Shown here: piece by piece, positions 1,654 through 29,780 of the stretch
Layout: each line of letters begins with the position of its first letter
Position numbering within the stretch: position 1 is the stretch's first letter
From: Planctomycetota bacterium
GTDB lineage: Bacteria > Planctomycetota > Planctomycetia > Pirellulales > PNKZ01
NCBI GenBank assembly: GCA_017303535.1
Contig: JAFLCO010000016.1
Span: 1 to 37,651, forward strand
DNA length: 37,651 bases
Reading direction: 5' to 3'
The notes under the pieces: generated by a model
What the model was told of the DNA's origin: nothing
The model's database searches: none
What the model saw: only the letters and a program-made list of their open reading frames with translations
Program-made: the position numbers and the translations under genes

Positions 1654-1726
1654 AGCGGGCGATCGGATTCGAACCGACGACAACCACGTTGGCAACGTGG
1701 TGCTCTACCAACTGAGCTACACCCGC
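1654..1726 (-). tRNA. tRNA-Gly (anticodon GCC)
   Basis: On the minus strand the 73-nt sequence folds as a full cloverleaf. The acceptor is GCGGGTG with CGCCCGC (one G-T wobble), the D arm is GCTC/GAGC, and the anticodon stem is CCACG/CGTGG with loop TTGCCAA, so the anticodon is GCC (glycine). The T arm contains TTCGAAT. The discriminator base is T, as is usual for bacterial tRNA-Gly. CCA is not encoded. It is read in the same direction as the trigger factor gene. Confidence 0.97.
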
Positions 1727-8038: not shown

Positions 8039-8130
8039 AATTCGGCAGGCCGGCCAAAAACGCCCTGGAATCGACACCGAAAAAGTGGAAAATACGGGGT
8101 TGGTTCTTTGGCAATTTGGTCTGTTTTAAG

Positions 8131-8216
8131 CGAGCGGCGGGGTTTATCCCCGCCGTCTGCTCTTGCGGCTTCGCGCGTCAAAAGGACCGGAAGGCGGGGA
8201 TGAACCCCGCCGCTCG
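8131..8216. repeat. 24-bp-arm inverted repeat with self-palindromic arms (within copy A)
   Basis: The left arm (8131-8154) and right arm (8193-8216) are reverse complements apart from one position that can form a G-T pair. Each arm is also a small hairpin, GGCGGGG-TTTAT-CCCCGCC, so the DNA or RNA can form either two short stems or one long one. Confidence 0.85.
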
Positions 8217-8347
8217 ACAGGTCTGAAAATCGACGTAAGTCGCGCAAGCGAATCAGGACTTACGTCAATTTTCCCGTGTGCGCACTCGGGCCGAAGTGCG
8301 CACTAAAACAGGCCCTTAGTGCGCGTCGGAGCGCTTACCAACAGGGG

Positions 8348-8376
8348 TGCGCACTCATTTGGAAAATGAGTGCGCA
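8348..8376. repeat. Perfect 13-bp hairpin with GGA loop (within copy A)
   Basis: TGCGCACTCATTT (8348-8360) pairs exactly with AAATGAGTGCGCA (8364-8376) around a GGA triloop. The corresponding place in copy B keeps the hairpin shape with altered bases. Confidence 0.85.
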
Positions 8377-8624
8377 GTGCGCGGTGAGTTTTGAGTATTG
8401 TCGTCGTCGTAAGTCGCCGAAGCGTTTGGGCACTTACGTCGATTTCAAATATCGGAAAGCTGAACCTCTAACCGTCGATGCACTGCCGGCATTCGCTAAA
8501 TGGGCAAAAGGCATTGCACCGCAGCGGCTTGGCGTTGACGAAAGCCGTCAAAAAAGCGACCATTCCGCCCCCTGTCGCGGATGGATTCGCGGCCGTCTCG
8601 TCGTTCGTCAACTCTTGGGCGGAA

Positions 8625-29387: not shown

Positions 29388-29780
29388 GAAAGTCGACGTA
29401 AGTCCCGAAACGCTTACGCGACTTACGACGAAAGCGCAATTCTGTTGCAATACGCAGTGCGTACTATTTTTGAAAAGAGTGCGCACCCTTAATTCCTAAG
29501 TATGCGGTGCGTACTAAAAGGCGCGCGAAGTACGCACCCCGGTCCAAATGTACGCAGCGCGCGTCGACGTAAGTATCGATTCGCTTGCGCGACTTACGTC
29601 AATTCTTGGACCAAGCGAGCGGCGGGGTTTATCCCCGCCGTCGATCTTCTCGACACCAATAATGGCAAACGCAGACGGCAGGGATAAACCCCGCCGCTCG
29701 CCACAAATCACACCATATTGCCAAAGAACCAACCCCGTATTTTCCACTTTTACGGCGTCGATTCCAGGGCGTTTTTGGCC
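29388..29780 (-). repeat. Composite palindromic intergenic repeat, copy B (about 393 bp)
   Basis: Read on the minus strand, this stretch has the same parts in the same order as copy A (8052-8446). The first 70 bp or so (29780 downward) differ at only a handful of positions. Then come the inverted repeat with CGAGCGGCGGGG-type arms (29677-29700 and 29616-29639, one mismatch), the GACGTAAGT dyad (29566-29600), a variable section with GTGCGTAC/GTACGCAC words, and the CGTAAGTCGCGTAAGCG end module. It begins 55 bp after the fliM stop, in the same orientation to fliM as copy A has to the ASCH gene. Confidence 0.85.

Follow-up and report, generated by a model that had tools for sequence, protein, structure and literature searches.

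The question raised by this locus is what kind of element occurs twice, in inverted orientation and 21 kb apart, between the genes of a planctomycete DNA stretch of 37,651 nucleotides (the window). An earlier note, made from the letters of the window, proposed a non-autonomous mobile element, a structured RNA or a DNA-binding array. It described two composite copies with the same parts in the same order, and this was confirmed on both strands: copies 1 and 2 align over their full length at 75% identity (BLASTN), and the first 69 bp, said to be almost identical over about 70 bp, do so at 95.7%. The long inverted repeat with palindromic arms was found as described, and the dyad, palindrome-rich section and end module correspond to a GACGTAAGTC hairpin and, further right, its relative (Table 1). 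The note overlooked the likeness of the head to a promoter and a boxA, and the exchange of whole modules (B and V) between copies.

Table 1. Parts of the two copies in the window; promoter and boxA labels denote likeness in sequence.
Feature	Position	Strand	Remark
Copy 1, complete element A-B1-C-V1-D	8052-8446	+	
Copy 1 left-end motif GGCCAAAAA, possible UP-like element	8052-8060	+	near-invariant family-wide
Copy 1 -35-like TGGAAT	8066-8071	+	
Copy 1 -10-like GAAAAT	8088-8093	+	GATAAT in a few copies; congener homologues have TAnnnT or GATAAT
Copy 1 head 22-bp core CGGGGTTGGTTCTTTGGCAATT	8095-8116	+	
Copy 1 boxA-like GGTTCTTTGGCAATTTGG	8102-8119	+	A to G relative to own 16S leader boxA GTTCTTTGACAATTTGGT
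Copy 1 module B, type B1, GAGCGGCGGGG inverted repeat	8130-8217	+	unrelated palindromes stand here in other copies
Copy 1 B1 arms	8131-8162 and 8185-8216	+	32 nt, 88% complementary
Copy 1 hairpin C, TCGACGTAAGTCGCGCAAGCGAATCAGGACTTACGTCAA	8230-8268	+	
Copy 1 variable block V1	8269-8403	+	TGCGCAC sites at 8279, 8297, 8348, 8370
Copy 1 invariant V1 core GTGCGCGTCGGAGCGCTTACCAAC	8319-8342	+	also 32 copies in congener G003
Copy 1 hairpin D, right end ...ACTTACGTCGATTT	8404-8445	+	
Copy 2, complete element A-B1-C-V2-D	29388-29780 (about)	-	between fliM 3' end and glutamine synthetase III gene start
Copy 2 -35-like TGGAAT	29761-29766	-	
Copy 2 -10-like GAAAAT	29739-29744	-	16-nt spacer
Copy 2 boxA-like GGTTCTTTGGCAATATGG	29713-29730	-	
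Copy 2 module B, B1 inverted repeat	29616-29701	-	
Copy 2 hairpin C	29564-29602	-	
Copy 2 variable block V2	29432-29563	-	conserved core GCATACTTAGGAATTAAGGGTGCG at 29482-29505
Copy 2 hairpin D	29390-29431	-	

Copy number and modular anatomy

The element is present twice in the window, but the genome as a whole holds many more copies. A larger genomic family, as the earlier note had inferred, is indeed present, far beyond chance: the 395-bp copy 1 query gave 85 matches in its own genome (E<=0.001), the 22-bp head core occurs at 55 sites with <=3 mismatches (45 of them exact; reversed control 0), and a pattern search for the C/D hairpin gave 118 matches (control 0). From the hairpin count we estimate about 60-65 copies, which is a lower bound, with several copies at contig ends. 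In all, 66 loci were retrieved and anchored. The genome is a draft assembly of 573 contigs that breaks at repeats, and contig ends fall inside the element in L004, L022, L073, L077 and L081.

The order A-B-C-V-D holds in almost all intact copies, and the A core is missing from about seven C-V-D copies. Whole units measure 335-660 bp. Module A (~70 bp) is non-palindromic. Module B, from the head core to C, comprises 57-379 bp of unrelated palindromic repeats, single or serial, of types that include GAGCGGCGGGG, TTAGCCCCGGGCG, CAGCGAGCCGGGAGCG and CCTTCTCCC. Hairpins C and D have an invariant stem core, ACGTAAGT...ACTTACGT, with a stem of ~11 bp and a loop of ~17 nt. Block V takes two main forms, V1 with the near-invariant core GTGCGCGTCGGAGCGCTTACCAAC and V2 with the core CATACTTAGGAATTAAGGGTGCG, and the C-to-D spacing is 173-175 nt in V1-like and 170-171 nt in V2 copies (119 in one deletion copy). 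The layout is modular, with A and C-V-D constant and B variable. Copy 1 is the sole scored element that pairs V1 with a B1 insert. A general closing stem around B was considered and rejected, as it is strong for B1 only and weak in the other B types.

Each element has five TGCGYRC sites, of the types TAC, CAC and TGCAA. Within one V2 block the sites tend to be of one type (agreement 0.65 vs 0.35 shuffled, shuffle maximum 0.43). Two genomes share the L071/L086 locus with flanks ~91% identical, yet their V blocks there are wholly different in type. Both the concerted site type and this V-type difference are consistent with gene conversion, or with template-switch repair, between palindromes.

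Beyond the right end, a second palindromic repeat (AGCCCCGAAGCGCAAGCGAGGG...CCCCCTCGCTTGCGCTTCGGGGCT) starts shortly after D in the right flanks of L010, L011, L015, L075 and L115. The V1 copies of G003 (L156-L185) carry an extra conserved module beyond D, GCGGCGA..GGCAACATTTGCCGCGAACGGCGCGG.

As far as tested, the element contains no ORF, transposase or known RNA family, as the earlier note had stated. An Rfam scan of the window found nothing above the gathering threshold in the element, which sets aside a known RNA family; its only match was a tRNA gene at 1654-1726 (-). None of the stop-free stretches in the copies (median 96 codons, maximum 159) resembles a conserved gene. Folding is far better than in shuffles on both strands (z -8.6 and -10.8), and the stems tested show no excess of G-U over A-C. 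The latter led to the rejection of strand-specific RNA stems, and both results fit DNA palindromes as well as RNA. The V stems covary, with 8 pairs showing two-sided change (0.107 vs 0.060 shuffled, 0/500), but this does not decide between RNA and DNA structure because it comes largely from one subtype and there is no G-U preference. The T run of hairpin D is short, and complementarity of the V core to 16S rRNA was dismissed, with matches of only 7-9 nt.

A head resembling a promoter and an rRNA leader

In 54 of 56 copies the head carries T[TG]GAA[TC] and, after a spacer of exactly 16 nt, GA[AT]AAT or a near match to it; the sequence of the spacer varies. About 9 nt past the -10-like hexamer lies a boxA-like sequence, GTTCTTTG[AG]CAATTTGGT. 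In the 16S leader of the same genome (L205), the boxA GTTCTTTGACAATTTGGT precedes the 16S gene by 195 nt, and it recurs as an exact 18-mer in about half of the element heads; the chance expectation for an 18-mer shared with the rRNA leader is ~4e-7. Copy 1 differs from it by one mismatch and copy 2 by two, and in about half of the copies, including both in the window, TTTGGCAA replaces TTTGACAA. The leader boxA is identical in another genome of the same family, and a close form occurs in one of another family.

Heads in the congeners have the form GGCCAAAAA-N5-T[TG]GAA...TAnnnT/GATAAT-GCGGGGTGG (also given as GC[GA]GGGTGG). In all V classes examined, those of the congeners included, head homologues keep to one side of the element, upstream of C, and point the same way. 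Given the -35/-10 spacing, the 18-mer and the congener heads, module A can be read as a promoter, followed in the own genome by a boxA leader. By E. coli rules it would be a weak promoter, since a consensus sigma70 scan called a site in neither window copy. The boxA is not a family-wide requirement, because most G003 copies have no recognisable one; these copies either lost boxA or never had it. Use of boxA outside rRNA has been described (PMC5725501, PMC7862264). For the structured RNA of the earlier note, then, the promoter-like head and boxA-like leader speak in favour, but the stems show no strand-specific G-U bias, and for this reason we infer an RNA product rather than observe one.

In the left flanks of L016, L019, L035 and L064, GTCAAGGNANTTTTTGGCC stands back to back with the head (TTTTTGGCC abutting GGCCAAAAA), and its complement ends in CTTGAC(A), resembling a divergent -35 motif. 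Outside the planctomycetes, the Verrucomicrobia MAG JAJPHR01 (L111:5120, L192-L203) contains 19 copies of a GGYTGGTTCTTTGACAATTGA-like sequence (control 0). In several cases a short GC hairpin stands just before this sequence and AATTAAAGTAAATTAAACC repeats come after it. By its sequence, this is apparently another multicopy boxA-led intergenic unit.

Gene context, distribution and signs of mobility

Gene neighbourhoods were taken from a home-made ORF-based gene caller. Among 50 scored copies, the flanking genes are convergent for 28, co-directional for 18 and divergent for 4, and the convergent share is well above that of ordinary short gaps in the same loci (13/62; binomial P ~6e-8). The copies sit in gaps beside stop codons, with the D end usually within ~35 bp of the stop of the convergent gene. 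A strand bias relative to genes was rejected (11 vs 7 in co-directional settings). Both window copies are co-directional, copy 1 after an ASCH-domain gene and copy 2 after fliM, ahead of the type III glutamine synthetase gene.

The V1 core occurs 21 times in the own genome (G000), 32 times in G003, once in G002 and not at all in G001 or in other families. Among 397 genomes of the order it is restricted to the genus; the sole extra match, in G208, lies inside a coding region and was set aside as chance. The half-hairpin ATCGACGTAAGTC gives a similar picture (G000 74, G003 63, G002 9, G001 0, elsewhere 0-2), with some of the nine G002 matches in coding sequence. Homologues are thus present in two of three congeners, abundant in G003 with other V types and rare in G002. 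Further V classes, with the sites TGCGCAGATA and TGCGCATCTAT, occur in both. Searches of phage, plasmid and viral collections returned no match to the element, and an origin from these sources was rejected on that ground. Two G002 contigs (C117 and C247, with L086 and L088) may be contaminants from a closer relative of the window's species, because they are ~91% identical to G000 and the other compared G002 loci mostly 76-82%.

G003 copies have a mixed gene context without convergent bias, and at most 1 of 16 has a flanking gene in common with a G000 copy. At the four loci tested, no clean empty site could be read in G001-G003, because the flanking genes are conserved there yet not adjacent.

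The left end of the element is constant (GGCCAAAA) and the right end is sharp at CGATTT. The full unit has no terminal inverted repeat, as the left GGCCAAAAACGC is not an inverted copy of the right ...ACTTACGTCGATTT; inverted repeats bound only the inner C...D segment. K-mers shared by the two flanks, sought as target-site duplications, are no commoner than in shuffles. Without such a duplication or a simple full-unit terminal inverted repeat, a classical MITE is unsupported, and we rejected it. No ORF-bearing version was seen among the copies retrieved from this repeat-broken draft. All four congeners have IS200-like PF01797 genes, but no C/D hairpin flanks any of the PF01797 loci checked; an association with RAYT/IS200 was rejected accordingly, and no GTAG-class RAYT gene flanked by the repeat, as in REP/BIME systems, was seen at these loci. 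The proposal of a non-autonomous mobile element therefore survives in part: copy number, patchy abundance among lineages, unshared sites and the convergent bias agree with it, but the classical MITE form does not.

Competing readings, known systems and meaning

On balance, we think this genus-restricted, modular, non-coding interspersed repeat of non-autonomous mobile type is probably a small transcription unit in its own genome. Transcription would begin from the sigma70-like promoter of module A, and the RNA would open with a boxA antitermination signal resembling the one in the host rRNA leader. Nus factors would then load onto RNA polymerase and let it pass through the untranslated, hairpin-rich B, C, V and D despite Rho. 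The RNA would fold into stable hairpins, the last of them D, which usually lies next to a neighbouring gene's stop codon. Spread would be in trans, copies would be retained mainly between convergent genes, where the harm is smallest, and B and V modules would be swapped between copies via recombination or gene conversion.

Many of the same features could belong to a palindromic repeat acting at the DNA level (REP/BIME/MITE-like), moved in trans by a transposase that recognises single-stranded hairpins, with the head as a transposon end and no functional RNA. The palindromes are stable on both strands, strand-specific wobble is absent, the ends are sharp or constant, and candidate IS200-like genes exist in all four congeners. 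However, the C/D hairpins flank none of the PF01797 loci checked, and a plain transposon end would need neither the -35/-10 spacing kept over a variable spacer nor the 18-nt match to the rRNA leader; we regard this explanation as unlikely, if far from negligible. In the DNA-binding array of the earlier note, a host protein would occupy the ACGTAAGT dyads and all five TGCGYRC sites between convergent genes, in an architectural or regulatory role such as buffering supercoils or transcription. In favour of such an array, the five sites of an element tend to switch type together, and the conserved C-to-D spacing and the strong bias to convergent pairs also suit it. Gene conversion or template switching explains the concerted change as well, though, and G003 copies have no convergent bias. 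No conserved positional role is visible, because sites are not shared with G003 and the family is missing from G001. We hold a binding array to be quite improbable.

Least probable by far is a SINE-like or retron-like repeat, in which a promoter-led structured RNA would be reverse-transcribed and the copy inserted at the 3' ends of genes. A promoter-like start at a fixed 5' end, a structured body, lineage bursts and the missing target-site duplication would all agree with it. Retron RNAs have a body bounded by a long inverted repeat, and the G003 body is likewise bounded by a single one (ATCGACGTAAGT...ACTTACGTCGAT). Yet the series of 5'-truncated copies that retroposition typically leaves was not noted, and it is modules in the middle of the element that are swapped. 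A bolder reading would make the element a SINE-like repeat of bacteria. A non-coding RNA gene with its own promoter would have acquired the boxA of the host rRNA leader at its start and spread to ~60 dispersed copies as a mobile unit, RNA-based or RNA-guided, in which both the cargo palindromes and the sets of recognition sites (the V types) can be exchanged. To this we give little credence at present, about as little as to the binding array.

Among known systems, the pneumococcal BOX element appears nearest by design (PMC3049150). Both have fixed end modules, a variable middle, many copies, a predicted hairpin RNA and an excess between convergent genes, and both are without a clear target-site duplication or a transposase of their own. 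The likeness is one of design: the BOX middle consists of repeated boxB units and that of our element of swapped, unrelated palindromes, and our element, in a planctomycete host, adds a promoter-like head and an rRNA-type boxA, unrelated to the BOX module of that name. GTAG and CGTC REPs and BIMEs are also high-copy intergenic palindromes, and the C/D hairpin contains CGTC, a class with no known transposase (PMC3733652). REPs measure 20-40 bp and have an unpaired GTAG or CGTC tag, however, and CGTC REPs have stems of 8-9 bp and loops of 4-5 nt (PMC3733652), whereas here the longer stem and ~17-nt loop are part of a composite unit of 335-660 bp whose head is not palindromic, outside REP/BIME size and loop. 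MITEs and Correia elements are likewise small, non-autonomous and strongly structured (PMC2229807, PMC10969869), and Correia elements can carry promoters, according to a passage in PMC3049150. Our element differs in that no target-site duplication, full-unit terminal inverted repeat or parent insertion sequence was found. In boxA-led rRNA leaders and CRISPR arrays, boxA also precedes a long untranslated structured region (PMC5725501, PMC7862264), but here it stands in a dispersed repeat, in ~55 heads and ~9 nt past a -10-like hexamer, without CRISPR repeats or rRNA. In a limited search of the open-licence literature, no repeat of this kind was described with a head that combines a promoter and an rRNA-type boxA.

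Interspersed repeats of small size are generally regarded as passive palindromes. If the reading as a transcription unit is true, the promoter and antitermination signal would make this one a self-transcribing repeat, and would explain how a long, untranslated, hairpin-rich RNA escapes Rho. The family may also allow gene conversion between dispersed repeats to be traced, because sites change type together and V blocks differ at orthologous sites. Finally, the absence of the family from G001 allows gene ends to be compared with and without the element.
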